A DNA stretch of 40,328 nt from an uncultured bacterium. Lineage in GTDB: Bacteria > Verrucomicrobiota > Kiritimatiellia > RFP12 > UBA1067. The translations under genes were made by a program, and so were the position numbers. The stretch lies in the NCBI GenBank assembly GCA_902779865.1, contig CACZDG010000013.1, forward strand, positions 462-40,789, given 5' to 3'. Positions 16,907 through 39,164 of this stretch are shown piece by piece. The notes under the pieces were generated by a model that saw only the letters and a list, made by a program, of their open reading frames with translations, was not told the DNA's origin and made no database searches. How positions within the stretch are numbered: position 1 is the first letter of the stretch; each line of letters starts with the position of its first letter.

Positions 16907-17584
16907 ATGAAAATAGCCCTAACAGGCGGAATCGCCTGCGGGAAGAGCCTGTTTGCCAAGTTCCTCGGGGAGCTTGGCATTCAGCTTATCGACGCAGACG
17001 ACGTTGTCCATGAACTCGAGGCCCCCGGCGGTGCCGCAGTGGAGCCAATCGTCGCGCGTTTCGGGCGCGGCGTCCTTTCCTCCGACGGCGGAATCGACCG
17101 CGCCGCCCTCGCGGAGCGCGTCTTTTCGGATCCCGCCGCCCGCGCCGACCTTGAAGCCATAATCTTCCCCCTCGTGCGTACCCGCCTTGGCAAGGCGGTC
17201 GCCCCGCGACCGCAGCGAAGTAGCGCCCCCATCACCATCCACATAATTCCTCTTCTTTTTGAGTCGCATTGGGAATCCGATTATGATATAATACTGTGCA
17301 TCGCCTCCCCGGTAGGTCTGCAGATAGACCGGATGGTGCGCTCGCGTGGTTACTCGCGCCCGCACGCGGAGGCACGTCTCGCGGCACAATTGCCCGTGGC
17401 CGAGAAAATCGCCCGTTCCAATTACACCGTGATGAACGATTCAACACCGGAACATCTAAGAGACGAGGCGGAAAGGCTTGTCGATTGGTTGAAGGGAAAG
17501 ATAGAAGATGAAGGAAGAAGAAACAAAGAAAACGTCCGAAAAGGATCCGGCGGCCGAAGCGGCCAAGCCGGCTCCAGCGCCTAG
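16907..17584 (+). CDS. coaE: Dephospho-CoA kinase
   Basis: A 225-residue protein that phosphorylates dephospho-CoA at the ribose 3'-hydroxyl, the last step of CoA synthesis. The P-loop is GGIACGKS (residues 7-14), followed by [11 protein letters not shown], the LID/CoA-binding region IIPLLFES and [22 protein letters not shown]. The order is that of CoaE. The start at 16907 is 6 bases after the secretin stop. Two oddities: residues 97-108 come from a perfect palindrome (17195-17213) that lengthens the loop before IIPLLFE, and the last 25 codons overlap the start of rho out of frame, giving an unusual basic Gly/Ser tail. The catalytic motifs remain intact, so the enzyme should be active. Confidence 0.93.
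17195..17213. repeat. In-frame palindrome in coaE
   Basis: GCGGTCGC-CCC-GCGACCGC is a perfect 8-bp stem with a 3-base loop inside coaE. Together with the following AGCGAAGTAGCGCC it encodes [12 protein letters not shown], a segment absent from CoaE proteins I can recall. It resembles the hairpin before ackA in stem composition and CCCC loop. Confidence 0.6.
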
Positions 17585-19439
17585 GAAGAAACGCGGTCGT
17601 CCGTCGAAGGCGGAAAAGGCCGCGCGCGAGGCGGCTGCATCCGAGGCTAAGGCAGCTGCTGAGCCGGCCCCGGCGCCGGAGCCTGCGCCTCAACCGACAG
17701 CAAGCGTACAACAGCAAGAACCACCGCCCGCAGCTGCACAGACTCCCGCGCCAACGCCAGCTCCTGCGCCGACACCAGCTCCCGCGCCGACACTTGCTTC
17801 TGCGTCGGCACCAGCTCCCGCGCCAGAGCCGGCTCCTGCGCCTCAAGCGACGGCAAGCGTGCAAAAGAAAGAATCTGCGCCGGCACCCGTTACAGGTACA
17901 CCTTCCTCGACTGGGGCAACGGGCGCACAGCCTGTTGCACCCTCGCAGTCGAAGGGCTCTGCGTCAGGCGAACAGCCGCTGAGCAATAGGCAGCGTCGGC
18001 GTCTGGAGTGGATGGCGCGCGCGGCGCAGCGCAACGCGAACCGTCCGAACTTCAAGAACGGCGGCCAGCGCTTCCAGCCGAACTTTCCGCAGGGCAACCG
18101 TCGTTCGCCCGCCGAAGTGCCGCAGAACCTTCCTCCGCCTACTCCCGCCGTGCCGCGCAATCCCGATTTGCCGGAGTACAGTCTTGTAGATATCCAATCC
18201 TGGGACAACGGCGAGATCGTCGCGAAGATGTGGCCGGACGCGAACGCGGAGGACCTTGGCGCGATGAAGCGCCACGAGATCATCTTCGGCGCGATCCGCA
18301 GCTACCTCAACCGAGGCGGCGCAGTGATGGCCTCGGGATGTCTTGAGGTCGTGAAGGAGGGATACGGATTCCTGCGCAGCGCGAAGACGAACTTCCTAGC
18401 TTGCCCGGAAGACGTGTTTATCCCGCAGCAGCAGATTCGCCGCCACGCTCTCCGTACGGGCGATACCGTCGAGGGTCCGATCCGCGACCCGCGTGACCGT
18501 GACCGTTTCTTCGCCCTCGGCAGCGTCGTGACCGTAAACGGCAAGACGCCAAGCGAGGCCGCGCGTATAGTCCACTTCGAGAACCTCACGCCCACGTTCC
18601 CGACGCGCCGCATCATCCTGGAGACGTCTCCTAACGAACATGCGATGCGCGTGGTTGACCTTTTCACGCCTATCGGCTTCGGCCAGCGCGGCCTCATCGT
18701 GGCGCCTCCGCGCGTCGGCAAGACGGTCCTTCTCCAGAAGATGGCGAACGCCATCACGAAGAACCACCCCGACGCCGTCCTCATCGTGCTGCTCATTGAC
18801 GAGCGCCCCGAGGAAGTGACGGACATGCAGCGCAACACGAAGGCGATGGTACTCTCCTCCACGTTCGACGAGGAGCCGCAGCACCACGTGAACGTGGCGG
18901 AGATGGTGATCGAGATGTCGCGCCGCCAGGTGGAGAACGGCAAGGACGTGGTGATCCTGCTCGACTCGATCACGCGCCTCGCCCGCGCCTACAACACGGT
19001 GCAGCCGCACTCCGGCAAGATCCTTACCGGCGGCGTGGACGCCCTTGCGTTGCATCGCCCGAAGCGCTTCTTCGGCGCGGCGCGCAACATCGAGGGCGGC
19101 GGTTCGCTCACGATCATCGCCACGGGCCTCGTCGATACCGGCTCGCGCATGGACGAGGTGATCTTCGAGGAGTTCAAGGGCACGGGCAACATGGAGCTGT
19201 GCCTCGACCGCGGCCTTGCCGACAAGCGCATCTTCCCGGCCATCGACATAGACAAGTCCGGCACGCGAAAGGAAGACCTCCTGCTCGCGCCGCTGGAACT
19301 TGAGAAGACCTGGGCGCTGCGCCGCGCGCTGTCCGACGCCGGTCCAGAGCGCGCCATGCAGGCCGTGCTTGCCGGCATGAAGAAGTACAAGTCAAACCCC
19401 GAGTTCCTGCTCTCGATTGACGGTAAGAACATCTACTAG
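17508..19439 (+). CDS. rho: Transcription termination factor Rho with long disordered N-terminus
   Basis: A 643-residue hexameric RNA helicase that ends transcription. About 225 N-terminal residues precede the conserved body: a basic [13 protein letters not shown] segment, a Pro/Ala/Gln-rich tract (about 50-145) and an Arg/Asn/Gln-rich tract (about 160-220). The Rho N-helical and cold-shock RNA-binding domain follows (about 225-335, with [12 protein letters not shown] and [19 protein letters not shown]). The ATPase has Walker A APPRVGKT (about 399-406) and Walker [16 protein letters not shown] (about 482-496), plus [15 protein letters not shown]. The body is complete. Long disordered insertions are known in Rho of Bacteroidetes and Actinobacteria. 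The start at 17508 is inside coaE (77-base overlap). The basic RGRPSK segment recurs at the N-terminus of Rho in related phyla and supports it. Confidence 0.95.
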
Positions 19440-21232
19440 TGGATCTTTGGAAAAAAATCGCCGCATCCATTCTGCTGATGTTGCTCGTCTGGGCGCTTTT
19501 CCGCCAGACGGGCGACTTCGAGTTCTTGCGCCTTGACGACCACGACTATACCTACCGCTGTGCGTTCGTGAAGGACGGCTTGTCGTTGGCGAACGTGCGT
19601 GAGGCGTTTACGAATGCGCGGCACGGCGGAATCTGGATGCCGGTGACGTACATATCGTATATGTGCGACATCTCGCTGTTCGGTCCCGGCCCCGGCGCGC
19701 ACCACCTCGTGAACGTCGCCATACACGCGCTGAACGCGGTATTGTTGCTGTGGTTGCTGGTTTCTTTGGCCGCAAAGAACGCAAAGGTCGCAAAGATTAT
19801 CTTATTCCTTCTTGCCGCGTTCTGGGCGCTGCACCCGCAACGCGCTGAGGCGGTGGCGTGGATTGCAAGCCGGAAGGAACTGCTCTGCACCGCGTTCATC
19901 CTCGGCGGTCTGCTCTGCTGGCGGCGTTCCATCATTGGCACATACGCCTGCTTCTTGCTCGCCTGCATGAGCAAGCCCACGGCGATGTGCTTCCCGTTCC
20001 TCGTGCTGGCGGTGGATTGGATTCGTCATTCGATGCCCGACGCCCGACACCCGGCAACAGGCAACAATAACTTTACGCTTTATGCTTTGCACTTTCCACT
20101 CTTCATTTGCATCGCCGCCGCGATTGGCTCACTTGTAATCTATTCCCAAACGCATCCCGAGGGTCATGCCGAGCTGGCGCTGTATAGCGCACCGCTCTGG
20201 TGGCGGTTGCTAAACGCCGCAGTCGCGGTGGGGCTTTACCTTTTCCAGATGGTCATTCCGATCGGCATCCATCTCGACTACCGCGCCGTGCCTGGCGGAT
20301 GGCCCGTGCATGGTGCGCTCGGGTTGGGCGTGCTGGCGGTTGTGGTGGGGGCTGGCGCGTGGTGGATATGCCGCCGTATTCGGCGGCGACATGGACAGGA
20401 TCTGGTAGTCGATTGCCACTTGCTTTTTTTCATCGGCGCATCCTGCCTTTGGTTTTTTGCCGCGCTCGCTCCGACGCTCGGCATATTCGGAAGCTTCGGT
20501 GAGCACGCCCGCGCCGACCGTTTCCTCTACCTGCCCGCGATGGCGGTGCCGATCGCGGCGATGCTGCTGTATGGTGCGCAAGCCATGCCAACTGGGCGAA
20601 AAGGCATCTTGCCCGTTGCGGGGCTTGCAATAGTTGTGGCGGGATTTTCCGCTGTTGCCTACCCGGTCGTGGCGAGTTACCGCAACGACGTGACGGCGTT
20701 TATGCGTTCGGCTGAATGTGATCCAGGGCACGGACGCGCACTTGCGCATCTCGGCGAGGCGCGGTGTGCAGCGGGCGATCTCGATGCGGGTATCGAGTTG
20801 TTGAGGAAAAGCCGTGAGGTACGTCCGCGCGACGCCACCGACGCGAAACTCGCCTACGCCCTCATGCGTCGTGGACGAGCTGACGACTGGAAGGAAATCC
20901 GCGAAGTATGCGCGGCGATTGCGAAAGACCCTGCGCGGGACGAGCGCGGACAGGCTCTTGAGGCGCTTGGCACCGCAGAACTGGTTGCGCGGAACTGGGA
21001 TGAGGCGACTAGGCATCTTGTCCTTTCCGTGAAGGCCCCGGCCCGGCATTACTCGTCGGCGGACGCAATCCTGAAGCTGGCGTACGCGCACCACAACGGT
21101 GGACGTCGCGACGAGGCGCAGAAACTTTTTGAATGGGTGGTGTCCAAATCTGGACGCGAAGACCTAGCCGTGCGCGCACGGCAGGTACTTGCGATTATCG
21201 AAGCCAGCCCGCAAAGTATCTTGTTCTGGTAG
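19439..21232 (+). CDS. GT-C-like multi-pass membrane protein with C-terminal TPRs
   Basis: The 597-residue protein starts with GTG in the last base of the rho stop codon (TAGTG). About ten hydrophobic segments occupy residues 5-430. An early periplasmic loop has the GT-C-type acidic motif FLRLDDHDY, then GGIWMPVTYISYMCDISLFGPGPGAHHLVN, broken here by family variation, as in TMTC/PMT-like membrane glycosyltransferases. TPR-like helices fill residues 435-597 (HLGEARCAAGDLDAGIELL and later units). A role as membrane glycosyltransferase using a lipid-linked sugar is inferred from fold. Three tandem repeats and one palindrome lie in frame in its predicted loops (19771-19797, 20036-20063, 20071-20098, 20370-20387). 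Confidence 0.72.
   Translation: MDLWKKIAASILLMLLVWALFRQTGDFEFLRLDDHDYTYRCAFVKDGLSLANVREAFTNARHGGIWMPVTYISYMCDISLFGPGPGAHHLVNVAIHALNAVLLLWLLVSLAAKNAKVAKIILFLLAAFWALHPQRAEAVAWIASRKELLCTAFILGGLLCWRRSIIGTYACFLLACMSKPTAMCFPFLVLAVDWIRHSMPDARHPATGNNNFTLYALHFPLFICIAAAIGSLVIYSQTHPEGHAELALYSAPLWWRLLNAAVAVGLYLFQMVIPIGIHLDYRAVPGGWPVHGALGLGVLAVVVGAGAWWICRRIRRRHGQDLVVDCHLLFFIGASCLWFFAALAPTLGIFGSFGEHARADRFLYLPAMAVPIAAMLLYGAQAMPTGRKGILPVAGLAIVVAGFSAVAYPVVASYRNDVTAFMRSAECDPGHGRALAHLGEARCAAGDLDAGIELLRKSREVRPRDATDAKLAYALMRRGRADDWKEIREVCAAIAKDPARDERGQALEALGTAELVARNWDEATRHLVLSVKAPARHYSSADAILKLAYAHHNGGRRDEAQKLFEWVVSKSGREDLAVRARQVLAIIEASPQSILFW
19771..19797 (+). repeat. 9-base tandem repeat inside the GT-C gene
   Basis: Three 9-mers, CGCAAAGAA, CGCAAAGGT and CGCAAAGAT, encode AKNAKVAKI (residues 112-120) in a predicted cytoplasmic loop between two membrane helices. 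The same family recurs outside genes at 39390-39416. Confidence 0.7.
20036..20063 (+). repeat. Heptanucleotide tandem repeat (CCCGACG type) in the GT-C gene
   Basis: Four degenerate 7-mers: CCCGACG, CCCGACA, CCCGGCA, ACAGGCA. They encode residues 200 to about 209 (PDARHPATGN) in a loop after the DWIRHSM segment. A second heptamer array begins 7 bases later. Confidence 0.65.
20071..20098 (+). repeat. Heptanucleotide tandem repeat (CTTTxxx type) in the GT-C gene
   Basis: Four 7-mers: CTTTACG, CTTTATG, CTTTGCA, CTTTCCA. They encode about FTLYALHFPL (residues 211-220), leading into the next membrane helix. The unit differs from the neighbouring array, so two heptamer families sit side by side. 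Confidence 0.6.
20370..20387. repeat. In-frame palindrome in the GT-C gene
   Basis: GCCGCCG-TATT-CGGCGGC, a perfect 7-bp stem with a 4-base loop, encodes part of CRRIRRRHG in a basic cytoplasmic loop. It may be chance in GC-rich DNA, but its position in a loop matches the other in-frame repeats. Confidence 0.4.
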
Positions 21233-21243
21233 AAGGTCAGCAA

Positions 21244-24045
21244 ATGGCAGATATAATCATAGAGGGTGCGAAAGTACACAACCTGCGCGACGTCGATGTG
21301 CGCATCCCGCGCAACTCTCTCACCGTCGTGACGGGGCTTTCCGGAAGCGGGAAGTCCTCGCTCGCGTTCGACACGCTCTACGCCGAGGGGCAGCGTCGCT
21401 ACGTGGAATCGCTCAGCGCCTACGCGCGACAGTTCCTCGACCAGATGCAGAAACCAGACGTGGAGCGCATAGAGGGCCTTTCACCTGCCATCGCCATCGA
21501 GCAGCGTACGTCCGGCGGCAACCCGCGTTCGATCGTGGCCACGGTCACGGAAATCCACGACTACTTGCGCCTCCTCTACGGCAACGTGGGCGTGGCGCAT
21601 TGTCCGAAGTGCGGCAAACCGGTGCGCCGGCAGAGTGCGGAGGAAATAGTCGAGACCATTCTTAAGTATCCAGCCGGCTCGAAACTGATTCTCTACGCCC
21701 CCGTGGTGCAGGGACGCAAAGGCCGCCACGAGGAAACCCTCGCCGACATCAAGCGCGCGGGGTTCGTCCGCGTGCGCGTGGATGGAACTACATACGCCCT
21801 CGAGGAAGTGCCAGCGCTCGACAAAAAGAAAAACCACTCCATCGACGTGGTGGTTGATCGTCTCGTGATCCCCTCCGCAGCTGACCCGGCATTCACCACG
21901 CGCCTCACCGACTCCGTCGAACTCGGCCTCAAGACCGGCAACGGTATCATCGTGGTGGAGCGCGTTGGCGAAGGTCGCGACGCTTCCTCCTTCGTCTTCT
22001 CCGAGAAGAACGCCTGCCCAGACTGTGGCATCTCCTTCGACGAACTGAAGCCGCGCAACTTCTCCTTCAACTCGCCGTTCGGGGCGTGTCCCACGTGCGG
22101 CGGCCTCGGCTCCATCTTCTACTTTGACGAAGACCTCGTGATCCCAGACAAGACGCTTCCGCTCCGCGAGTGCATCCACCCGTGGCGCCGCGCCGGACAC
22201 ATGGCGATCATGTACTACAACGAAATCCTCTCGCGGATCGCGAAGCAGTACAAGGTGAAGCTCGATACGCCGTGGGAGAAGCTGCCCGCCGATTTCCGGC
22301 ACAAGCTGCTGCATGGTTTCGACGACGACCTCATTCTCCCCTGGCGCTCGAACGACAAACCCTTCGAGGGCGTGATGGCCACTCTCCAGCGCATGATGGA
22401 GCAGGCGGAGAGCGACGAGCGGCGCGAGAAGTTCGAGTCGTACCAGAGCGATCGCCCTTGCCCAGCCTGCCACGGCTCGCGGCTCAATCCCATATCGTGC
22501 GCCGTCACCGTGGCGGGCAAGACCATTGTTGACGTGATGGCGCTGCCGGTGAAAGACGCCTTGGCGTTCTTCAAGACGCTGACTGGCGAGAAATATTCTG
22601 TAGTGAAAGACGTGTTGAAGGAGATTGTGAAGCGCCTCGGCTTCCTCAATGACGTTGGCCTCGACTACCTTACGCTCGACCGTTCGAGCGGTTCGCTTTC
22701 CGGCGGCGAGATGCAGCGCATCCGCCTCGCCTCGCAGATCGGAAGTGGCCTCACGGGCGTCTTGTACGTGCTCGACGAGCCCACCATCGGTCTTCACCCC
22801 CGCGACAACACGCGCCTGATCGCTACGTTGAAGGAACTGCGCGACCGTGGCAATACCGTGGTGGTGGTGGAACACGACGTGGAGATGATGCGCACTGCCG
22901 ATTACATCGTTGATCTCGGTCCCGGCGCGGGTCGTGAAGGCGGCCGCGTGATGTACCAGGGCGATTTCAAGGGTCTGCTCAAATCCCGCACCCTCACCGC
23001 CGACTACCTCACGGGGCGCAAGAAAATTGAGGACCACGAACCACGCGCCACGAACCACGAACCACGAAAATACCTCACCATCAACGGCTGCACCCACCAC
23101 AACCTCAAAAACGTGACGGCGAAGATTCCACTCGGCACGTTTACTGTGGTGACCGGCGTATCGGGGAGCGGCAAGTCCTCGCTCATCGACGAAACTCTCA
23201 AACGCGAGCTGATGCGCCGCTTCTACCACGCAAAAGCCGTGCCCGGTAAGTTCCGCAAGCTCACCGGTGTGGAGCACATCGACAAGGTGATTGAGATTGA
23301 CCAGTCGCCCATCGGACGCACCCCGCGCTCGAACCCTGCGACTTACGTGGGCTTCTTCAGCGACATCCGCGAGCTGTTCGCGAAGACCGAGGGCGCAAAG
23401 GCGCGCGGTTACACGGCAGGGCGCTTCAGCTTCAACGTGAAGGGCGGACGCTGCGAGACGTGCGGCGGCGACGGCGTGCGCAAGCTTGAGATGAGCTTCT
23501 TGCCAGATGTGTACGTCACGTGCGAGCAGTGCAACGGCCGTCGCTTCAACAAGGAGACGCTTGAGGTGAAGTACGGCGGAAAGACGATCTCTGACGTCCT
23601 CGACATGACCGTGGCGGAGGCGTATGAATTCTTCGCTAAGGTGCCGCGTCTTGCGTCAAAGCTGAAAACGCTCGTCGATGTGGGCCTCGGCTACATCGGT
23701 CTCGGACAGCCCGCTACGACGCTCTCTGGCGGCGAGGCGCAGCGCATCAAGCTCGCAACGGAGCTTTCGCGCCGCTCGACGGGCCGAACGCTCTACCTCC
23801 TCGACGAACCGACCACGGGCCTCCACTTCGACGACGTGGCGAAACTGATGGCGCTCCTGCTCAAACTGCGCGAAAGCGGCAACACCGTTGTCGTGATTGA
23901 ACACAACGTGGATGTGATGCGCTGCGCGGACTGGATCATCGACCTCGGCCCCGGCGGTGGCGATGCGGGCGGCACGCTCGTTGCGGAAGGTACGCCAGAG
24001 GAAATCCGCGCCAACCCGGCCTCGATTACGGGTCGATTCCTGTGA
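21244..24045 (+). CDS. uvrA: Excinuclease ABC subunit A
   Basis: The 933-residue DNA-damage sensor of nucleotide excision repair; it loads UvrB. Two ABC ATPase halves are complete. The first has [19 protein letters not shown] (about residue 31), [14 protein letters not shown] and [15 protein letters not shown]. The second has [30 protein letters not shown] and [15 protein letters not shown]. Zinc-binding pairs are CPKC, CPDC/CPTC, CPAC and CETC/CEQC. The ATG at 21244 ([16 protein letters not shown]) is preferred to an upstream in-frame start at 21133 that would overlap the previous gene, and AGAAGG lies upstream. Residues 597-609 are encoded by a heptamer repeat in the linker between the halves. 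Confidence 0.97.
23034..23068 (+). repeat. Heptanucleotide tandem repeat (CCACGAA x5) inside uvrA
   Basis: Five 7-mers: CCACGAA, CCACGCG, then CCACGAA three times. They encode [13 protein letters not shown] between the two ATPase halves, just before the YLTINGC strand. The linker tolerates length change, so function should be kept. Confidence 0.85.
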
Positions 24046-24054
24046 GTGTTTTAT

Positions 24055-24086
24055 GGTATAATATTAACCCGATTTTCAAAGGAAAG
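24055..24086 (+). promoter_or_regulatory. Extended -10 promoter and ribosome-binding site of purL
   Basis: TGGTATAAT (TATAAT at 24057-24062) lies just after the uvrA stop and is a perfect extended -10. No convincing -35 is visible. AAAGGAAAG (24078-24086) precedes the ATG at 24096. An upstream in-frame start at 24042 would put the promoter inside the coding sequence and is rejected. Confidence 0.6.
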
Positions 24087-24095
24087 CAAGAAACT

Positions 24096-27000
24096 ATGAA
24101 ACCAATTTTGATGATGGGATCCGCGGCGTATTCGCCGTTCCGCCTCGACGCCCTGCGCGCCGCCCTTGCCGCCGCCGACAAGGCGCTCGCGAATGTGTCT
24201 ATCGACGCCCGCTGGGTGTACGCGATCGAGCCGGAGGGCGAAGGCCCCGATGCCGAGACGCTCGAACGTGCGGCCCTGCTCCTGAATGCCGAGAATGGGG
24301 AATGGGGAACGGGGAATGGGGAACATGGGTCGTTCTACGTCACGCCGCGAAAGGGGACGATCTCGCCGTGGTCGTCGAAGGCTACCGATATTTTCCGCAA
24401 TTGCGGTTTGAAGGGCATCGCGCGCGTCGAACGCGGCATCCTCTTCAACGTGTCGCCCGCCGTGCCGCCGGCAGCGCTCGGTGCGCTATACGACCGCATG
24501 ACCGAGGGCGTGTACACGGACCTCGACGATCTTTTTGACTGTCCGCCGCCGAAGCCCGGCGTCACGTTCGACGTGCTAGGACGCGGCGTGGAGGCGATCC
24601 GCGAGGCTAACGTCTCGCTCGGTCTCGCGATCAGTGAACCCGAGATGCAGTACCTCGCCGAGAGCTTCAAGGCCGCAGGACGCAACCCCACGGATACCGA
24701 GCTCGTGATGTTCGGTCAGGTGAACTCCGAACACTGTCGCCACAAGATATTCGGTGCGCAGTTCATCATCGACGGGAAGAAGCAGAAGGATTCCCTCTTT
24801 GGGATGATCAAGAACACCCACAAGAAGAACGGTAAGGGTACGCTCGTAGCTTATAAGGATAATTCCTCGGTGGTGGAAGGCTTCGAGACGGAGATGTTCA
24901 TGCCGACGGCAAACCATGACTACCACTTCAAGAAGCTCCAGCTTGACCAGCTGATGAAGGTCGAAACCCACAACCACCCGACGGCGATCTCGCCATATCC
25001 GGGAGCGGCCACGGGCGTGGGCGGTGAAATCCGCGACGAGGCGGCGACTGGCAGCGGCTCGCGCTCGAACGCGGGCATATGCGGCTTCATGGTGAGCGAT
25101 TTGCACATCCCCGGCTACCCGCAGCCGTGGGAGCGCGAGTACGCGGAGTTCCCGAAGCGTCTCGCCACGCCGCTTGCGATCATGACCGAGGGACCAATCG
25201 GTGGCGCGGCGTTCGGCAATGAATTCGGGCGTCCGCAGCTCACGGGCTTCTTCCGTACGTATGAGGGCGAGGCGTCGGGGCTCTATCGCGGCTACCACAA
25301 GCCCATCATGTTGGCGGGTGGACACGGCGTGATCATCCGCGACCAGGTGGAGAAGAAGCCGGTCAAGACCGGCGCATACATCGTCCAGATAGGCGGTCCC
25401 GCGATGCGTATTGGTCTCGGCGGCGGCGCGGCGTCCTCGATGATGACCGGCACGAACGACGAGGCGCTCGACTTCAACAGCGTCCAGCGCGGCAACGCGG
25501 AGATGCAGCGTCGCTGTCAGGGCGTGATCAACGCCTGTGCGTCTATGGGGCGGAAGAATCCCGTCCTCTCCATCCACGATATCGGCGCGGGCGGTCTTTC
25601 GAACGGCTGCCCCGAACTCGTGGAGGCGACTGGCGGAAAGTTCTCGCTCCGTACGGTACACAACGAAGAGCCCTCCATGAACCCGATGGAGATCTGGTGC
25701 TGCGAGGCGCAGGAGCGCTACGTGCTCGCGCTGAAGCGCGAGGCGCGCGCGTGGTTCGAGGAACTTTGCGCCCGCGAGCGCTGTCCCGTCGCGTTCATCG
25801 GCGAGGCGACGGGCGACGGACGCCTCATCCTCGAGGACGAATACTTCCACGACCGTCCGATCGACATGGACATCAAGGTCCTGCTCGGCAAGCCGCCGCG
25901 CATGGTGCGCGACGTCGCGCACGTGGCGCGTGCGCACGAAATGCTGAATCTTGCAAATGTGCAGCCGCAGGATGCGTTCTTCCGTCTGCTCCACTTGCCC
26001 ACAATCGCCGACAAGACGTTCCTCGTCACGATCACGGACCGTTCCGTGACGGGCCTCGTGGCGCGCGACCAGATGGTGGGTCCGTACCAGCTGCCCGCTG
26101 CCGACTGCGCGGTGACGGCGATGGGCTACAAGACGCTCCACGGCCAGGCCATGGCCACCGGTGAGCGCACGCCCGTGGCGCTCATCGACGCGCCGGCGTC
26201 CGGACGCCTTGCAATCGCCGAGGCGCTCACAAACCTTGCGGCAGCGGACTGCGGCGACATCCACAACGTGCGCCTCTCCGCGAACTGGATGGCCCCGTGC
26301 GGCGAACCGGGCGAGGACGCCAATCTCTTCGACACGGTGAAGGCCGTCGGTATGGAGTTCTGTCCTGCGCTCGGTATCTCGATCCCCGTGGGCAAGGATA
26401 GCTGCTCCATGCACACCACGTGGACCGACTCCAAGGGCGTTTCGCACAAGCAGGTGGCGCCGCTTTCGCTCGTCGTCTCCAGCTTCTCGCCTGTCGAGAA
26501 CGTGCAGCGCACCTTGACGCCTGATTTGAAGCCGGGTACGTCGCAGCTCATTTACATCGATCTCGGTCAGGCGAAGTACCGTCTCGGCGGCAGCTGCCTC
26601 GCGCAGGTGTACAACCAGCTCGGCGATGAAAACGCCGATGCCGACGCGAAGACCTTGAAGGCGTTCTTCAACGCGATGCAGAAGATCGTGTGCGATGGCC
26701 TCGCGCTCGCCTACCACGACCGCTCGGATGGCGGCCTCGCTGTGACGCTCGCCGAGATGGCGATTACGGGCGGGCGCGGTGTTGGTGTGACGCTGCCGGA
26801 TGCGGATGCCGACGGCAACCCGCTCGATCCGCTGGCGGTTCTATTCTCCGAGGAACCGGGTGCGGTGCTGCAGGTGGCGGATGAAAAGCTCAATGAGGTG
26901 CTCGCGATTTTCCGCCGCGCGCGCCTTGGCGACTGCGTGCATGTGATCGGTGCGCCCACGGGCGACCGCACCTTTACGATCCACGTCGGGTGCCGTCGCG

Positions 27001-27992
27001 TTCTCGCGACGGATATCACCTCCATCCGTCGCGCGTGGAGCGAGACGACCTACCGTATGCAGGCGCTTCGCGACAACCCTGCCACGGCGAAGGAGGAATA
27101 CGACAACGGCCTCGACGAGAGCGATCCCGGACTCACCTTCAAGCTCACCTACGATCCGGATAGTAGAACGGGCTGCCAGCCCGTTCATTCCCGGAACGGG
27201 CTGGCAGCCCGTTCTACCAAGCCCCGCATGGCCATCCTACGCGAGCAGGGCGTGAACGGCCACATCGAAATGGCGGCGGCGTTCGCACTCGCGGGCTTCG
27301 AGAGCGTGGACGTACACATGACCGACCTCCTCGCCGGTCGCGTGGACCTCGCGGACTTCCAGGGCCTCGTCGCGTGCGGCGGTTTCAGCTACGGCGACGT
27401 GCTGGGCGCGGGCAGCGGCTGGGCGCGGTCGATCCTCTTCAACCGGAAACTCAAGGCGATGTTCAGGAAGTTCTTCCACCGCAAGGACACCTTCTCGCTC
27501 GGCGTGTGCAACGGTTGCCAGATGCTGTCGCAGCTCAAGGACATCATCCCCGGCGCGGAAGCGTGGCCGGAGTTCAAGCGCAATACGTCCGAGCAGTTCG
27601 AGGCGCGGTACTGCACGCTTGAGGTGCTTGACTCGCCCTCGATCTTCTTCAAGGGCATGGCGGGCAGCCGCATCCCGATCGCCGTTGCGCACGGCGAAGG
27701 GCGCGTGGTGTTTCCTGCGGGCGTCGATGCCGCGAAGGCGAAGGCGGCGCTTCGCTACGTCGATGGCCGCGGCAATCCGACGGAGCGTTATCCGTGGAAC
27801 CCGAACGGCTCGGCGGGCGGCCTCACGTCGTTCACGACGCGCGACGGACGCGCCACGATCATGATGCCGCACCCGGAGCGCGGCTTCCGTGCCGCGCAGC
27901 TCAGCTACAATCCGGGCGTGTTCACCGGCGAGGCCGGCCCCTGGATGCGAATGTTCCGCAACGCCTACGCCTTTGCGGTTTCCCAAAGGTGA
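24096..27992 (+). CDS. purL: Phosphoribosylformylglycinamidine synthase, single-chain
   Basis: A 1298-residue enzyme (E. coli 1295) converting FGAR, glutamine and ATP to FGAM in purine synthesis. Domains in order are the N-terminal PurS-like domain (1-150), linker ([16 protein letters not shown]), and two AIRS-type ATP-binding units (with [53 protein letters not shown] and [11 protein letters not shown]). The C-terminal glutaminase (about 1045-1298) has nucleophile Cys1138 in [10 protein letters not shown] and a His/Glu pair in MMPHPERGF. All motifs are intact. Two repeats are built into the frame: a heptamer array at residues 68-77 and a large palindrome at 1023-1041, the latter just before the glutaminase domain. 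It has its own promoter and is probably monocistronic. Confidence 0.97.
24297..24324 (+). repeat. Heptanucleotide tandem repeat (GGGGAAT/GGGGAAC x4) in purL
   Basis: Four alternating 7-mers, GGGGAAT GGGGAAC twice, i.e. two exact 14-mers. They encode [10 protein letters not shown] in the N-terminal domain, in a loop before a beta strand (SFYVTPRKG). Confidence 0.85.
27163..27217. repeat. Large perfect palindrome inside purL
   Basis: Two arms of 23 bases (27163-27185 and 27195-27217) are exact reverse complements around a 9-base loop CATTCCCGG. The arm core is AACGGGCTGCCAGCCCGTT, itself nearly palindromic. It is read through in frame as [19 protein letters not shown] (residues 1023-1041), at the junction between the last AIRS domain and the glutaminase domain. 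Confidence 0.95.
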
Positions 27993-28002
27993 GGCGGTTT
28001 GT

Positions 28003-28025
28003 GGTATAATATCCACCACAGGAGG
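28003..28025 (+). promoter_or_regulatory. Extended -10 promoter and ribosome-binding site of xseB
   Basis: TGGTATAAT (TATAAT at 28005-28010) is a perfect extended -10, and AGGAGG (28020-28025) follows directly. A start of transcription near 28017 would leave a leader of only about 16 bases before the ATG at 28033. No -35 box is evident. Confidence 0.6.
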
Positions 28026-28032
28026 TTGGCCG

Positions 28033-29396: not shown

Positions 29397-29400
29397 CGCC

Positions 29401-30993
29401 ATGTTTGCCGCCCTCGCCAACGATTCCTGGAGCAGCACGTGGAGCCTCCTTTCGGACGGCGTCGCGATTCTCATCATCGCGGTGCTGCTTCTGCTTGGCG
29501 CCTTCCTCGGCTACGCGCTGCGCGGGCTCGTCGGACGCTGGCGCGCGGAGGCGATCGAACGGCAGATGCGCATTCGCGAGGAGGAGAGCGAAAGCGAGAT
29601 CAAGGCCAAGCTGAAGGAAGCGGACATCGCCGCGCGCGCGGCGGTCGTGAAGGCGAAGGAGGAATTCGAGGCGACGGCGAAAAAGCGCCGCGCCGAATTG
29701 CAGGCCATTGAGGACCGCCTCGCCCAGCGCGAGAACGCCCTCGATAGGCGCGCGGATCAGCTGGACACGAAGTCCGCCGCCGTGGAGGCGAAGCAGTCCG
29801 CCGTCACCGCCGCCGAGAAGAAGGCCGCCGCCGACCTCGCCGTAGCCGACAGGCGTCTGCGCGACCTCGCCAAGATGACCCACGAGGAGGCCCGCCGCGA
29901 AATCCTCACGCGGGCGAACTCTGAGCTTCGCGCCGATGCGGCAATCCTCTCGCGCCGAATCCAGGAGGCAGCGCGCGAACAGGGCGAGGCGAAGGCCCGG
30001 CAGCTCGTTGCGGACGCCATCCAGCGTTGCGCCGTCGCCCATTTGAACGAACTTGCGACGACAGCGGTGCAGCTTCCGAATCCCGAAATGAAGGGGCGCA
30101 TCGTCGGACGCGACGGCCGCAACGTGCGCGCGTTCGAGGCGGCGACGGGCGTGACGCTGCTGTTGGACGACGCACCGGAGACGGTAATACTTTCCGCGTT
30201 CGATCCCCTGCGCCGCGAGATCGCGCGCCGTGCGCTGACTGCGTTGATCGCCGACGGGCGCATCCATCCCGCCTCCATAGAGAGCGCGGTCGAGGCGGCG
30301 CGGTCGAGCGTGGAGAGTTTGAACGAGGAGGCCGGCGCTGCCGCTGCTGCGGAGGCCGGCGTGCCGGGGCTTCCTGTTGACGTCCTTCGCCTCATGGGTG
30401 CGCTTGCGTTCCGTACGTCGTTCACGCAGAACGTGCTGCGGCACTCGGTGGAAGTGGCTCTTCTCATGGGCACGATGGCTGCGGAGATGGGCCTTGACGC
30501 AGCGCGTGCGCGTCGCATCGGTTTCCTGCACGACATCGGCAAGGCTCTAACCTCAGAGAAGAAGGGCGCGCACGCCGCGCTTGGCGCGGAGTTCCTGAAG
30601 ACGCACGGCGAGAACGATGAAGTCTGCGCGGCGGTCGCCGCGCACCACGCCGACCCGGGAACGGATGGCGGCGTGTACGGCACGCTCTGCTCCGCCGCGG
30701 ACGCAATTTCGTCCGCACGGCCGGGCGCGAGGCAGGAGAGCCTCGGCGACTACGTGCAGCGTCTTGAGGCGATTGAGAAACTGGCACGCTCGCACAAGGG
30801 CGTGGTGAACGTCTATGCGGTGCAGGCGGGACGCGACCTGCGCGTGATAGTCGATCCCGCCGAAGTGCCGGACCAGGACATGTCGGCGCTTGCCGGCGAC
30901 ATCTGCCGTGAAATATCGGCGCAAGTGAAATTTCCGGGGCTGATCCGGGTGACGGTCATCCGAGAGCGCCGGTGCGTGGAATACGCGAAGTAA
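29401..30993 (+). CDS. rny: RNase Y-like membrane-anchored HD-domain endoribonuclease
   Basis: A 530-residue protein with the architecture of ribonuclease Y. A membrane helix (about 19-41) is followed by a long charged coiled coil (about 50-200), a KH RNA-binding domain with MKGRIVGRDGRNVRAFEAATGV (about 230-255), and an HD domain with RHSVEVALL (about 347) and the metal-binding HDIGKA (about 376-381). The C-terminal domain ends in KFPGLIRVTVIRERR as in the family. RNase Y starts mRNA decay at the membrane; the HD metal site does the cleavage. The length matches B. subtilis Rny (520). It starts 4 bases after the GHKL gene stop, so the two are likely co-transcribed. Confidence 0.92.
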   Translation: MFAALANDSWSSTWSLLSDGVAILIIAVLLLLGAFLGYALRGLVGRWRAEAIERQMRIREEESESEIKAKLKEADIAARAAVVKAKEEFEATAKKRRAELQAIEDRLAQRENALDRRADQLDTKSAAVEAKQSAVTAAEKKAAADLAVADRRLRDLAKMTHEEARREILTRANSELRADAAILSRRIQEAAREQGEAKARQLVADAIQRCAVAHLNELATTAVQLPNPEMKGRIVGRDGRNVRAFEAATGVTLLLDDAPETVILSAFDPLRREIARRALTALIADGRIHPASIESAVEAARSSVESLNEEAGAAAAAEAGVPGLPVDVLRLMGALAFRTSFTQNVLRHSVEVALLMGTMAAEMGLDAARARRIGFLHDIGKALTSEKKGAHAALGAEFLKTHGENDEVCAAVAAHHADPGTDGGVYGTLCSAADAISSARPGARQESLGDYVQRLEAIEKLARSHKGVVNVYAVQAGRDLRVIVDPAEVPDQDMSALAGDICREISAQVKFPGLIRVTVIRERRCVEYAK

Positions 30994-31015
30994 TAAAAAG
31001 AAAAAGGAGAAAGCA

Positions 31016-32854
31016 ATGCTAAAGCAAGTAATCAGTGTGTTTGTGGGCGCGGCCGTCTGTGCAACCGCGGTCGCAGAGGGCGTGAAACCGAAAACCGAGC
31101 TTCTGGGCACGGTCGAGTTCGCGTCATTCGACGAAGTCCAGCAGAAGATGGCAGATCTCGGGGCCACCGTAAACAACCCCGTCGTGCCGATGCTGGTGAT
31201 GCCATCGCTCCAGAACTTCCTGAATGAAAACTGCGGCAAGTTCCGCAAGGACGCGCCGATGACGTTCTACTGCTACGCGCAGATGGAAGCGCTGCGCAAG
31301 GCGATGTCGGACAGTTCTGACGAGGTAGATGTTGATGATGCAATCGATCCGGTTTTCGTGTATCCCACGGCGGAGGACCAGACGGCGTTCATGGCAAGCC
31401 ACCCCGAGGCGCAGAAGGCCGCTGACGGCACGATCAAGCTTGACGACGACACCGTGGTGGTCTTTTCGGCCGACGGCCGCACTTGCGCGTTTGCCCAAAA
31501 CGTGGAAACGGCCAAGCGCGCGCTTGGCGCAAAGCCGTCGCCTGCCGCGAAGCGTCCCCTCATGCGCTTGGATGTTGCGGAGCCCGCCTTCGCGCTGATT
31601 GCGGATTTCCAGCGGAAAGTCTCGAAAGTCTCCGAAGCGCAGACAAAGCAGCTGCAGAGCCTGGATTCGACGAATGGAACCGAGCAGATCATGGCGGCGG
31701 TTGCGAAGGTTCAGCAGAGCCAGCTCAAGAGGCAAAACGCTTTCATCCGCGCGTTCGCGAAGGGCTGCATGATCGTCGATCTCGACGACACGGGATTCGT
31801 GGTCAAGGCATCCGCCACCGCGAAGCCCAACGCGCCTAAGGGCGTTGCCGCGGGATTCCGTCTGCCGTCCGGCGCGCTTGACGTGGCGCCCGCCGATGCG
31901 AAGATGTGCATTGCGTTGAATCCGTTGGCAGGCGAGTGCTTCACGTCCGAAAAGGAATTCGCCGGGTACATTGACGAAGCGATGGAGATGATCAACGCCA
32001 TCGCCTCGTGCGCCGCGAAGAACCTGTCCGATCCCAAGTACGCCCCGACCGTGGAAGGCCTGCGTGTTGCGGTTAACGATTACCTTGCGGCGTTGAAGGC
32101 CGATTTCTCGCCTTCTGACTGGGGCACCACCGCGCTAGCGTTCGGACCGAAGCAGGAACCGTACATGGTGGAGGGCGGCACTTGCAAGTCGTCGGCGTCC
32201 GACATCGCCCTTGCAACACGTTTCTTTGCGGCCGTAGCCGACGCCATCGGCAAGTCCTGGCCCGGCATCCTGAGCGCGAACGGCGCGAGCCTGACGATTG
32301 ACTGGGAGCGCCTGATGGATGCCGCAGCGGAGGCGTCCGGCGTGAAGGGCGATGCGCAGAAGGAGCTTGCGAACGCCAAGAAGAAAGTCGCGGCGGTCCT
32401 CGGCTCGACCAAGACCGAGATCGCGAGCAAGGCGACGTCCGCGACGTCCTTAGGCAGCGTCATCGGCCCTGTCGGCTTCACGCCGCCCGCCGTGAAGTCC
32501 AACGGCGAGGCGCGTTTCGCCGCCGCGATGCCGGAAGCCGCGAAGGACCGTCCCTCCGGCGCGTTCTACTTCGCGCTCTATTCGCTCCTGCGCGACAACG
32601 CCCTTCCCATCGCCATGAAGGTGATGCCCAAGGACAAGGTTGACCAGGTACAGCCGATCCTGGCCGTGTTGCCGGCCGCCGGCGAAAACAGCGCGCTCGC
32701 GGCCGCTGCGTGGTTCGACAAGGATTCGTCATTCCGCTTCATCTTCCGCATTACGTCCGGCGAGATCCGCAACTACGGCGCAGCGGCCAACGCCGCGATG
32801 GCCGCAAGCGCGTCGCAGGGGCAGAAAGCCGGCGGAAGCGATGAAGACAAGTGA
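31016..32854 (+). CDS. Exported protein of unknown function
   Basis: A 612-residue protein with a clear signal peptide (MLKQVISVFVGAAVCATAVA). GGAG (AAAAAGGAGAAAGC) stands before the ATG. The mature part mixes helical and beta segments with many Lys/Ala residues. A Lys/Glu-rich helical stretch lies about 445-470 (AQKELANAKKKVAAVLGSTKTE), and a charged Gly/Ser/Lys tail ends the chain. No catalytic or binding motif is recognisable and I cannot assign a family. The first half (ELLGTVEFASFDEVQQKMADLG) and a later part (SLGSVIGPVGFTPPA) might be two related domains, but this needs profile searches. Neighbours are housekeeping genes, which give no clue. Confidence 0.8.
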   Translation: MLKQVISVFVGAAVCATAVAEGVKPKTELLGTVEFASFDEVQQKMADLGATVNNPVVPMLVMPSLQNFLNENCGKFRKDAPMTFYCYAQMEALRKAMSDSSDEVDVDDAIDPVFVYPTAEDQTAFMASHPEAQKAADGTIKLDDDTVVVFSADGRTCAFAQNVETAKRALGAKPSPAAKRPLMRLDVAEPAFALIADFQRKVSKVSEAQTKQLQSLDSTNGTEQIMAAVAKVQQSQLKRQNAFIRAFAKGCMIVDLDDTGFVVKASATAKPNAPKGVAAGFRLPSGALDVAPADAKMCIALNPLAGECFTSEKEFAGYIDEAMEMINAIASCAAKNLSDPKYAPTVEGLRVAVNDYLAALKADFSPSDWGTTALAFGPKQEPYMVEGGTCKSSASDIALATRFFAAVADAIGKSWPGILSANGASLTIDWERLMDAAAEASGVKGDAQKELANAKKKVAAVLGSTKTEIASKATSATSLGSVIGPVGFTPPAVKSNGEARFAAAMPEAAKDRPSGAFYFALYSLLRDNALPIAMKVMPKDKVDQVQPILAVLPAAGENSALAAAAWFDKDSSFRFIFRITSGEIRNYGAAANAAMAASASQGQKAGGSDEDK

Positions 32855-32881
32855 TTTGAGAAAGAGGAAAACAAGAAGAAT

Positions 32882-35593
<2,712 letters not shown>

Positions 35594-35603
35594 GGAGAAC
35601 GCC

Positions 35604-36809
35604 ATGCAGACCGTTACGAACCAGATCAAGCAGTCGATGGCGGGATCCAGCTGGATCCGCAAGATGTTCGAGAAGGGCATCGAACTGAAGAAGCGCTACG
35701 GCGCGGACGCGGTGTGCGACTTCTCGCTCGGCAACCCCGATGTGCCGCCGCCCGCGAAGACGAAGGAAATTCTGGAGGGACTCGCCGCGAAGGCGATTGA
35801 GCCGCTTGGGCTCGGCTACTGTCCGAACGCCGGCATCCCCGCCGTGCGCGAGGCGATTGCCGCCTACCTCTCCAAGCAGCAGCAGGCCGACGTCAAGGCC
35901 GCGAACGTGGTGATGACCGTCGGCGCGGCCGGCGCGCTCGTGGCGTTCTTCCGCGCCGTGATCGAACCGGGCGACGAGGTGCTGTGTCCCGCGCCGTACT
36001 TCGTGGAGTACGGTAGCTACTGCGGACACTTCGGCGGCGTGTTGAAGGCCGTTGATTCCAAGCCCGAGGAGGGATTCCGTCCCGACTTCGACGCGATGGA
36101 GAAGGCCATCGGACCGAAGACGCGCGCGATCCTCGTGAACTCCCCGAACAACCCGACGGGCTGCATCTACGCGGCGGAGGACATGGCGCGGCTTGCGTCC
36201 ATCGTTGACCGCGTGAACGCGGTGCGCGAGGCGGAAGGGGGGCGTCCGCTCTTCCTCCTCAGCGACGAGCCCTACCGCGCGTTCGCCTACGACGGCGCAA
36301 CGGTGCCGGCCGTCCTGCCGCTCACGCCCTACGCCGTGGTGCTCGGCTCGTTCTCGAAGACGCTCTCGCTCGCGGGCGAGCGCATCGGCTACGTGGTGGC
36401 GAGTCCGGCGATGCCGGACGGCGACACGCTCATCAACGCCGTCACGCTCACGAACCGCACGCTCGGCTACGTCAACGCGCCGGTGCTCGGACAGCGTCTC
36501 GCGGCCGCGCTTCTCGACCAGACGGTTGACCTCGAGATATACGACCGCCGCCGCAAGCTGATGGCGAAGGTGCTGTCCGAGGCGGGCGTCGAATTCACGA
36601 TGCCGAAGGGCGCGTTCTACTTCTTCCCGAAGGTGCCGGGTGGCGACGACATCGCGTTCGTCGATGCGCTTCAGGAAGAGAAGGTCCTCGCCGTGCCGGG
36701 ACGCGGTTTCGGCATGGCCGGATACATCCGCCTCTCGTGCAGCGTGGATGAGGCGATCATCGCGCGCAGCGCGGAAGGCTTCAAGCGCGCCGTCGCGAAG
36801 TTCAAGTAA
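35604..36809 (+). CDS. PLP-dependent class I/II aminotransferase
   Basis: A 401-residue fold-type I aminotransferase of the AspC/AlaT-like group. The PLP lysine is K252 in GSFSKTLSLAGERIGYV. PNNPTGCIY, SDEPYRAFAYDG and MAGYIRLSCSVDE are conserved substrate- and cofactor-binding segments. Substrate specificity cannot be told from sequence by eye; aspartate, alanine or aromatic aminotransferase are possible. The ATG at 35604 has AAGGAG 6 bases before it and follows valS by 10 bases, so the two are co-transcribed. A TTG start at 35586 would overlap the valS end and is not needed. Confidence 0.92.
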   Translation: MQTVTNQIKQSMAGSSWIRKMFEKGIELKKRYGADAVCDFSLGNPDVPPPAKTKEILEGLAAKAIEPLGLGYCPNAGIPAVREAIAAYLSKQQQADVKAANVVMTVGAAGALVAFFRAVIEPGDEVLCPAPYFVEYGSYCGHFGGVLKAVDSKPEEGFRPDFDAMEKAIGPKTRAILVNSPNNPTGCIYAAEDMARLASIVDRVNAVREAEGGRPLFLLSDEPYRAFAYDGATVPAVLPLTPYAVVLGSFSKTLSLAGERIGYVVASPAMPDGDTLINAVTLTNRTLGYVNAPVLGQRLAAALLDQTVDLEIYDRRRKLMAKVLSEAGVEFTMPKGAFYFFPKVPGGDDIAFVDALQEEKVLAVPGRGFGMAGYIRLSCSVDEAIIARSAEGFKRAVAKFK

Positions 36810-36810
36810 G

Positions 36811-38211
36811 ATGAAAATCAACAAAGAGACACAGAGGCACGGAGGCACAAAGGTTATGACAAATGGTATCTTGAAAATCTCTGTGCCTCTGAGCCTCTGC
36901 GTTAAAAAGCAAATAAGGCTTTTGGGCGTATGGCTCGCCTTGTCTTGCGCCGCGGCGGAGCCCGCGCACGTGCCGATGGAGTGGAAGTGCGTGCAGACGA
37001 ACGCCATCGCCGCGTGGAAGTCCGCGAACGCCGCACCGGACGGAATCGTTGCGGATGCCGCGTCGCGCTCCGTGCGTTTCCTCGCCGAGGCCACCGGACT
37101 TGAAGACGCCACTACGGTGGAGTTCCTGGCCATCGGCCCGCTCTCCGACCGCGCATACGAATCGCTATTCGTCACCGTGCCGTCGCCGGCGGCGATTGCG
37201 TCCGCGCTCGAGCGCGTGGGCGTGCCGCGCGGAGTGCCGCCGGACATCGCCGGCGCGCGCCTGTGGCCGTGCGGCGAGAAGCTCACGCTCTCCGCGAAGC
37301 GCCTTAAGCCCGACGCCCCGTCGCCCGCGCCGCTTGCGCTTGCCGATCTCCTCAACGACACCGCCGCGAAGGACGAGGGCGCAATCCTGCACTCGCCGTT
37401 CCTCTACACCGGCGGACAGCGCGACGACGCAGGCGCCGTAGTCGCCGCCACGAACATCCCCTGCGCCGTGTTCGCGCTCTACAGCCACTCGCCGTCGCTG
37501 CTTCTGCTTGACGGACAGTTCGACCAGTCGAGCGCATACGGACGCTTCCGCGCGAAGATCAAATGCGCGCCCGGCGATCTGTTCGAGATGACGCTGCGCT
37601 GGGACGGACGCACCACGGTGCTGCGCCGCGACGTGACGTTCACGGTGGCGAACATGAAGGAACAGCTCGCCGCGCTGCGTTCGGAGTCGGAGGGACGCGA
37701 CCTCTTCGTGTGCCCGTCCTTCGGCGCGGGCACGACGGTGGAAGACGCGGCGTCCATCGCCCACGCGCTTTCGATGCTTGACGGCAAGGCCCTGAAGATA
37801 TCCGGTGCGGCTTCTGGCAAGTTCTTCTTCCGCGCGTTCCTGCCGGATTCCACGTGGCGCGAACGTTCGGGACGAATCTTCCAGCCGTTCGAGGTACATG
37901 TGGCGGCGGACGGCAAAAAGGGGTTTGTGTTCGTTGAGGAGGACTGGTCCGGCGAAGGGCTTGATCCCGTCCTCAAGCCGAAGGAGACGCCGTTTGCGGA
38001 ATGGAAAGAGCTGCCGGGGCTCATTGCGAAGACGGGCGAGGCTGGAGGCAAGATAAACGTCCTTTTCATCTTCGCGCCTAAGGCGACGCCCGTCTCCGCG
38101 CTTGAGCCAGTCGTTACCGCGCTCGGTTCCCGCATCACCACCTACTACGTCTTCGGCGAGGAAACTGCCAAGCCCGCCGAACCCACCACCAAAAGGCAAG
38201 GCATTGAGTAG
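36811..38211 (+). CDS. Exported YdjY-like protein with a repeat-encoded N-terminus
   Basis: A 466-residue protein starting 2 bases after the aminotransferase. Residues 6-31 are encoded by an imperfect inverted repeat (36828-36903). A typical signal sequence follows only after it (KKQIRLLGVWLALSCAAA, cleavage before EPAHV). The mature start, with FLAIGPLSDRAYESLFVTVPSPAAIASALERVGVPRG (interrupted pieces: FLAIGPLSDRAYE and PSPAAIASALERVG), resembles the YdjY domain common in Planctomycetes and related phyla, function unknown. The C-terminal half is beta-rich and unassigned. A second in-frame ATG at 36856 inside the repeat could be the real start, giving a shorter N-region. It probably acts in the periplasm. 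Confidence 0.75.
   Translation: MKINKETQRHGGTKVMTNGILKISVPLSLCVKKQIRLLGVWLALSCAAAEPAHVPMEWKCVQTNAIAAWKSANAAPDGIVADAASRSVRFLAEATGLEDATTVEFLAIGPLSDRAYESLFVTVPSPAAIASALERVGVPRGVPPDIAGARLWPCGEKLTLSAKRLKPDAPSPAPLALADLLNDTAAKDEGAILHSPFLYTGGQRDDAGAVVAATNIPCAVFALYSHSPSLLLLDGQFDQSSAYGRFRAKIKCAPGDLFEMTLRWDGRTTVLRRDVTFTVANMKEQLAALRSESEGRDLFVCPSFGAGTTVEDAASIAHALSMLDGKALKISGAASGKFFFRAFLPDSTWRERSGRIFQPFEVHVAADGKKGFVFVEEDWSGEGLDPVLKPKETPFAEWKELPGLIAKTGEAGGKINVLFIFAPKATPVSALEPVVTALGSRITTYYVFGEETAKPAEPTTKRQGIE
36828..36903. repeat. Inverted octanucleotide repeat at the start of the YdjY-like gene
   Basis: Left arm 36828-36855 has three 8-base units of the type GCACxxAG; right arm 36876-36903 is the inverse, with units reading GCxCAGAG on the other strand. 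The arms match at about 22 of 28 positions. It separates the ATG at 36811 from the signal peptide yet keeps the frame. Confidence 0.85.
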
Positions 38212-39121: not shown

Positions 39122-39164
39122 GCCGCCAGGGCGCATCTACGTTTTTCACCCATGCGCTTTGAGA

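Follow-up and report, generated by a model that had tools for sequence, protein, structure and literature searches.

Why do conserved genes for essential enzymes carry short repeats inside their reading frames, and how might such repeats have come to be there? The question is raised by a stretch of 40,328 nucleotides (nt), here called the window (G000:C13:462-40789), from an uncultured gut Kiritimatiellae species. Its metagenome-derived genome, G000, has 4,298,331 bases in 272 contigs, and its closest named relatives by PurL, one of which is RGIG6444 from sheep rectum, are mainly gut Kiritimatiellae. An original prediction made from the letters of the window described palindromes and 7-, 8- or 9-base arrays in coaE, uvrA, purL, valS and the genes of a GT-C membrane protein and a YdjY-like protein. 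We found that the repeats are present as described and that the phenomenon is wider than was noted, both in counts across G000 and in orthologues. Judged from alignments, unrelated repeats occupy homologous linkers across related species.

The repeats are a real and strong phenomenon, of which the palindromic part is a new instance, and the array part a new form, of a known kind. Pfam confirmed CoaE, UvrA, PurL and ValS as products of window genes and gave no match for the GT-C and YdjY-like proteins. Among the papers listed in a literature survey on heptanucleotide and small dispersed repeats, intragenic palindromes and Kiritimatiellae, which covered few subscription journals, none was seen to report mainly in-gene heptamer arrays or such repeats in Kiritimatiellae.

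Related species carry unrelated repeats at the same linkers

We searched 17 genomes within the genus and aligned the DNA of coaE, GT-C, uvrA, purL, valS and ydjY across it; all repeats of the window named below are on the plus strand. At amino acid (aa) 1023 of purL, upstream of the glutamine amidotransferase domain, G000 has a GTAG-tagged head-to-head dimer of a repetitive extragenic palindrome (REP; 27163..27217, 24-nt arms matching at 100%). At this site we found CTAG 9-mers in G010 and G012, TCCGGAA 9-mers in G014, CAATCAAA 8-mers in G005, GTAG hairpins in G008 and G006, a TAGTGCC array pair in G004 and a CAGAG array pair in G016, G011 and G013; in G001 and G009 the orthologue alignment shows nothing comparable. 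By eye, sites are also re-used at aa 66-72, 270 and 812 of purL, 608 of uvrA, 450 of valS, 118 and 200 of GT-C and about 97 of coaE. The coaE palindrome of G000, GCGGTCGC-CCC-GCGACCGC (17195..17213, aa 97-103, read AVAPRPQ), is matched by another palindrome (GCGGCACTCCTGCCGC) in G007 and G014 and by a different sequence in G006. Where the GT-C gene of G000 has the 9-mer array GCAAAGAAC (19771..19796, read AAKNAKVAK), the same array is found in G010 and GTAG-type hairpins in G014 and G006; where it has a 7-mer array, CCCGACA/CGACACC (20031..20066), there are longer CCCGACA-type arrays in G010 and G014 and the palindrome GGGACAACGGGCATCTTGCCCGTT in G006. The pattern extends to G294, a species of another genus. 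Of 996 aligned residues, its gltB product shares 802 with that of G000; G294 cleanly lacks a 16-aa GGGGAAY insert present in G000, and near aa 1345 G000 has GGGGAAY and G294 has ACCACGA. The suggestion that new peptide segments arise in housekeeping proteins agrees with these alignments.

For a census of inserts, 19 window genes were queried, and orthologues at 50% identity or more were obtained for 11 in the stretches examined. Only gene copies with open frames were used (5 were excluded for stops or frame), and coaE was left uncounted with too few rows remaining, so that the inserts come from 10 genes. Length-variable blocks at 32 sites gave 96 alleles that exceed the shortest one by 6 aa or more. 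With 20 inserts shorter than 24 nt set aside, 33 of the 76 others, which are not independent events because related species share alleles, were classed as an array or hairpin, as compared to 2.3% of 1505 control segments taken from those genes. For GT-C, uvrA, purL, valS and ydjY alone the figures are 31 of 55 inserts and 2.4% of 1087 segments. The inserts of the secretin and rny genes and most of those of rho are ordinary length changes and were scored as misses unless they passed.

We considered whether the repeat peptides are ancestral residues and rejected this, as the best solved homologues of PurL, UvrA and ValS are without these peptides (the PurL alignment ended before aa 1023). The uvrA array, an ACCACGA 7-mer array (23033..23068), lies in the linker preceding the second ATPase half in an alignment to solved UvrA 2r6f, and the UvrA of Geobacillus has a linker of almost equal length to the array-bearing one. 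Thermus ValS (1gax) has a 6-aa gap at the first of two valS palindromes, TGGTCAAAC-TGT-GTTTGACCA (34234..34254, read DGQTVFDQ); the second is TGGCCAAAC-TGT-GTTTGGCCA (34738..34758, read DGQTVFGQ).

Frame breaks occur in three gene copies of relatives: purL of G007 at the insert site, and purL of G012 and valS of G007 elsewhere. Apparent stops in coaE of relatives proved to be natural gene ends. If inserts were spliced from RNA or bypassed by ribosomes, the hairpin-forming nature of many of them would make sense, but frame is kept and stops are avoided, neither of which splicing or bypass needs, and, in the few broken copies that bear on this, only one of the three breaks is at an insert site. 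On frame and stops we disfavor this explanation and regard it as very improbable. The three broken copies, the metagenomic origin of G000 and its relatives, and the several purL contigs of relatives that start or stop within the gene would also be expected from an assembly artefact. We give that explanation next to no credence, as the same phenomenon is seen in species assembled by several projects, with flanks intact and frames open.

The repeat families are dispersed and are not excluded from genes

We counted five families of the window across G000 (the coaE and GT-C palindromes, the CCCGACA array and the ACAGAGGC pair are outside these counts) and found that all five are dispersed. The purL palindrome is at 10 sites, two of which (on C67 and C64) have near-identical contexts. 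The valS palindrome is at 11 sites with up to 3 mismatches, with compensating changes between its arms and no match for the reversed control. The ACCACGA array is at 9 sites and the GGGGAAY array at 18 (20 with a laxer pattern), with reversed controls of 0, and GCAAAGAAC has 49 matches with at most 1 mismatch, overlapping units counted, against 1 for its control. These multi-site families with near-zero controls support the claim that the repeats are dispersed and are not products of local slippage. Replication slippage of native codons, each repeat arising independently, could explain why array lengths vary, but it does not predict the dispersed copies of ACCACGA and GGGGAAY, or unrelated units at one site in related species, and palindromes are not simple slippage products. 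We therefore reject it on the dispersed copies as having hardly any likelihood.

The arrays also exceed chance as a class. A 400-kb G000 sample (18 stretches of 20 kb plus the window; 89.5% called coding) contains 14 period-7 arrays as compared to 1 in an order-3 Markov control, and at periods 5, 8, 9, 10, 11 and 13 the same 400 kb contains 0, 0, 1, 1, 1 and 0. The window was chosen by a reader; with it removed, 11 period-7 arrays remain in 360 kb. Comparison DNA gave 6 in 1175 kb of mostly proteobacterial PurL neighbourhoods and 1 in 240 kb of further loci with a Kiritimatiellae or related label. In the G000 sample, 12 of 14 period-7 arrays at the stricter score, and 16 of 20 at the laxer one, are in called genes; by Pfam, their hosts are a glutamate synthase (four arrays at the stricter score and seven at the laxer), UxuA (three), a Glu/Gln-type tRNA synthetase (one) and a glycosyltransferase (one). 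Perfect hairpins with arms of at least 8 show a modest excess in this sample (105 observed, about 65 expected); 8 of the 105 adjoin GTAG or CTAC, 7 of these in called genes. The case for the palindromes rests on the dispersed families, not on a hairpin excess as a class.

A site passed our coding test when both 450-nt flanks scored above 7 in the same open frame; for GGGGAAY and ACCACGA sites the cut-off of 7 was applied by hand to scores computed for those sites. The test was passed by 9 of 10 purL-type REPs, 8 of 11 valS-type palindromes, 15 of 20 GGGGAAY arrays and 7 of 9 ACCACGA arrays, together 39 of 50 sites as compared to 393 of 600 random segments; thus, these four families are not excluded from genes. 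On C31 (G000:C31:17712-27750, L275), about 10 kb contains four GGGGAAY arrays, on both strands; unlike the other GGGGAAY sites, none of them passes the test.

Strand, frame and predicted structure

The GGGGAAY and ACCACGA copies that pass the coding test in G000 are all in the sense orientation (22 of 22). Both units are stop-free on both strands, and because a 7-base unit runs through all three frames, its peptide is identical whichever frame is used. The strands differ in hydropathy: by grand average of hydropathy (GRAVY), sense GGGGAAY (GERGTGN) scores –1.91 and antisense (VPRSPFP) –0.44, and sense ACCACGA (TNHEPRT) scores –2.53 and antisense (SWFVVRG) 0.66. The REP dimer reads SRTGCQPV or NGLAARST with small changes in all 9 of the 10 copies that pass the coding test; its second frame is also open. 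The pattern of strand and frame is what selection for harmless loops would be expected to leave.

Placement of the repeats at linkers or loops, as had been predicted, is borne out in the one case that was modelled, the GGGGAAY array at aa 71 of purL (24293..24323). In a predicted model of PurL residues 1-620 (33 sequences; mean predicted local distance difference test, pLDDT, 72.7), the array peptide appears as coil leading from a helix at 53-63 to a strand at 79-84, with a pLDDT of about 63-77.

The sense orientation of all clearly coding GGGGAAY and ACCACGA copies, and the fact that coding copies of the four families are not depleted, might also be read as function, with selection favoring the presence of the repeats because they act as linkers or as mRNA signals of the G-quadruplex or hairpin type. 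GGGGAAY could form G-quadruplexes by analogy with published heptamer repeats (PMC4692102). However, family and presence vary at the same site between close species and some species are insert-free, while ACCACGA has an equal strand bias without G-runs, and hydropathy can account for the bias. We consider a functional origin unlikely.

Other features of the window

Nine of the ten listed repeats are within coaE, GT-C, uvrA, purL and valS and keep the frame, so the predicted in-frame position in conserved genes stands for these. The tenth, an array AGAGGCAC with an inverted copy (36825..36899), is at the 5' end of the YdjY-like gene. It is not clearly intragenic, because the start codon may be at 36811 or at 36856 and the gene in relatives begins downstream of the position of the pair. 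A 7-bp palindrome in GT-C, GCCGCCG-TATT-CGGCGGC (20370..20387), is weak evidence, because it is short and is shared by G000, G007, G010 and G014.

The prediction held that the 9-mer is common to genes and to an intergenic site at 39390. There is indeed an intergenic GCAAAGAAC array (39392..39414), preceded by a left end, TTTTAGCC, that is found at other copies, and this GCAAAG family proved to be mostly intergenic. Many of its sites that fail the coding test have TTTTAGCC or TTCAGCC at their left end. At five loci (L301, L307, L317, L319 and L320), outside clearly coding DNA, we observed a palindromic unit whose arms are GCAAAG 9-mers and whose flanks are similar and AATATCGTGATTTTCAGCC-like; from its sequence, the unit looks like a small mobile element. 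An imperfect inverted repeat (39154-39175 and 39317-39338; 22 nt, 82%, 141 nt apart) lies in a spacer near the end of the window. Positions 13649-14127 and 17663-17842, in the secretin-like and Rho N-terminal regions, are Pro/Ala-rich low-complexity codon repeats with units of 12 to 63 nt; these differ from the dispersed families in being ordinary tandem repeats whose units are multiples of three.

REP-like hairpins and candidate movers

The purL palindrome consists of GTAG-AACGGGCTGCCAGCCCGTT and an inverted copy ending in CTAC, with the GTAG unpaired, an 8-bp stem and a 3-nt loop in a head-to-head dimer. GTAG REPs are defined by stems of 5-13 bp, loops of 2-20 nt and head-to-head dimers (PMC3733652, Table 1), and by its sequence the purL palindrome belongs to this known kind. 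Intragenic GTAG REPs have been described, most of them in the verrucomicrobium Opitutus terrae, where both uvrA genes carry them (Di Nocera et al. 2013, PMC3733652). The prediction that neither repeat kind was known from this lineage was thus too strong for the palindromes.

Movers of such repeats would be REP-associated tyrosine transposases (RAYTs), which have the Y1_Tnp domain. All 17 genomes searched in the genus have Y1_Tnp, as do 5 of 14 control genomes. On contig C85 of G000, 8 GTAG-tagged hairpins lie within or close to a Y1_Tnp gene, and some of them read LRSDGASPS in the frame of that gene. At this locus (L203:85-3624), the Y1_Tnp frame stays open through the cluster of tagged hairpins into a GH127 beta-L-arabinofuranosidase; the repeats would therefore fuse or bridge two genes, unless the GH127 gene has its own start. 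GTAG-tagged hairpins also lie near other Y1_Tnp genes in G008 (L200) and G001 (L199), and their sequence differs by species.

Arrays of 7-, 8- and 9-base units

The arrays are built of degenerate 7-, 8- or 9-base units and occur singly or as an array, a spacer and an inverted array; inverted pairs lie close together in purL of G004 and G007 and in a uxuA-like gene of G000. In purL of G004 (L153:3797-7960), an element of about 100 nt, made of an array, a core of about 40 nt and an inverted array, occurs four times in one gene.

Among 387 genomes sampled from the phylum, 7 have an exact 20-nt ACCACGA array, in a patchy distribution; the reversed control matched 5 genomes (8 hits) and is not neutral at this breadth, because it is itself a heptamer array. 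Array contexts in other genomes were read by eye from open frames, with no coding model. Of the ACCACGA arrays fetched, 5 of 7 in G294 (which has 37 hits) and 3 of 5 in G007 are in long sense frames; the single copies of G016 and G366 are not. In G097 and G175, from distant families, 4 of 4 are intergenic. On these small numbers, the in-gene habit looks like a property of this lineage.

Continual insertion as the favored explanation

Taken together, these data suggest that many very small dispersed repeat families coexist in the genus. We think it probable that several small-repeat systems insert continually and that selection retains the copies that are harmless: insertion would possibly occur anywhere, and within genes mainly copies that are in frame, stop-free, hydrophilic and placed at a loop or linker would survive. 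The REP-like hairpins, alone or as inverted dimers and some of them GTAG-tagged, would likely be moved by RAYT-type Y1 transposases. The arrays might spread, as a guess, when a short intermediate, single-stranded or folded into a hairpin, is copied. What the sequences show directly is presence, dispersal, frame, the sense bias of two families, re-used sites and one loop position; movement, the enzymes and a filter by selection are inferred. Where a linker accommodates one repeat it should accommodate others, so unrelated families would swap at the same sites as species diverge; as different repeats are found at the same spots in different species, the repeats seem to keep rewriting enzyme loops.

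Several observations weigh against continual insertion. Neither the valS palindromes (11 copies) nor the coaE palindrome has GTAG or CTAC beside its stem. The second Y1_Tnp gene of G000 has no tagged hairpin, and of 30 Y1_Tnp loci examined among 50 matches, 24 have none and 6 have at least one nearby. The hairpin linked to the C85 RAYT (CGACGGCG) is of a different family from the purL REP and is hardly dispersed, with one further copy. No transposase was tied to the arrays. Sense bias is incomplete. Among the 7 GGGGAAY and ACCACGA sites failing the coding test, the best frame of 3 is antisense, at weak scores; gltB of G294 includes one ACCACGA unit that is read antisense in frame (GSWFV) next to sense units; and genes contain GGACTTC units in either orientation. 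Only 4 of the 22 GCAAAGAAC sites listed pass the coding test, one of them probably by chance. The uvrA stretch with its array is 96 nt as compared to 99 nt in repeat-free G009 and is thus not lengthened, and the 31-nt array at purL aa 71 brings a net gain of only 9 nt. Finally, all genomes compared are metagenome assemblies. The C85 RAYT as mover of the purL palindrome is not supported, as its hairpins are another family; because that family differs and scarcely disperses, we only infer a RAYT link for the purL REP.

The lengths of uvrA and purL aa 71, together with a net gain of 33 nt from the 55-nt element at purL aa 1023, indicate that repeats often substitute for linker sequence. The expectation that inserts would be missing exactly at the repeat boundaries holds for gltB and fails for uvrA and purL aa 71, where the linker was replaced with little or no net gain. 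That arrays substitute for linker and do not merely add length is what would be seen if they spread, unlike transposons, through templated repair or gene conversion acting on short stretches of homology, with slippage then changing their length. The prominence of period 7, as in published heptamers for which polymerase slippage was proposed (PMC4692102), the differing array length in purL of the close species G000 and G010, the four arrays within about 10 kb of C31 and the occurrence of several arrays in single genes agree with it. However, units of array, core and inverted array recur with a similar core: purL of G004 has four, and those with GCAAAG arms are found at several G000 sites. We regard repair copying as possible, though doubtful.

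A bolder form of the continual-insertion explanation is that this Kiritimatiellae family hosts an undescribed mobility system that places 7- to 9-base arrays into genes on the coding strand, so that a common pool of short DNA units keeps supplying housekeeping enzymes with new hydrophilic linkers and several unit families compete for sites. We put this forward as speculative and rather unlikely. Since empty and occupied sites coexist, the spread of the arrays becomes testable. As a caution, linkers in these genomes align poorly, and assemblies may break at repeats. The sister species, which differ in repeat-encoded peptides at the same loops of essential enzymes, offer a natural experiment on the origin of new protein segments, in which alignments of orthologues make it possible to follow how segments are inserted, tolerated and fixed.

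Comparison with known repeat systems

Short, dispersed heptamer repeats are known in cyanobacteria as short tandemly repeated repetitive (STRR) sequences, and the arrays resemble them in being short, dispersed and built of heptamers. The predicted likeness to such repeats is sound, as the degenerate 7-nt units lie in dispersed arrays.

The arrays are also like the heptamers of Xanthomonas and Nostoc (PMC4692102) and the TAACTGA repeats of Beggiatoaceae (PMC4679880) in being dispersed 7-base arrays that are patchy across lineages, and like those of Xanthomonas in their degenerate units and often nearby inverted pairs (PMC4692102). The heptamer repeats of two xanthomonads are 89% and 93% intergenic and are under-represented in coding DNA (Rehm et al. 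2015, PMC4692102), and the TAACTGA repeats are mostly intergenic (MacGregor 2015, PMC4679880). In contrast, 16 of 20 arrays of the G000 sample are in called genes, copies of GGGGAAY and ACCACGA that are clearly coding have the sense orientation, and several families of unit are found together. In this one genome, at least two unit families thus reverse the published rule.

As the prediction also held, the palindromes are like the Rickettsia palindromic elements in being read in frame within unrelated, also essential, genes (PMC3733652). The likeness is one of description; here the repeats are shorter (19-55 nt), many unrelated families occur together, and the lineage is another.

A further close system is that of GTAG REPs and RAYTs (PMC3733652; REPINs, PMC3116915). 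The purL family shares with them the GTAG tag, the 8-bp stem, the 3-nt loop, the head-to-head dimer and dispersal, and also the intragenic copies, which in the published case include verrucomicrobial uvrA; Y1 transposase genes with tagged hairpins are present in the same genus. In contrast to the published GTAG REPs, which are mostly intergenic, the purL family is intragenic at 9 of 10 sites by our coding test and is not tied to a transposase of its own, and the valS and coaE palindromes are untagged.

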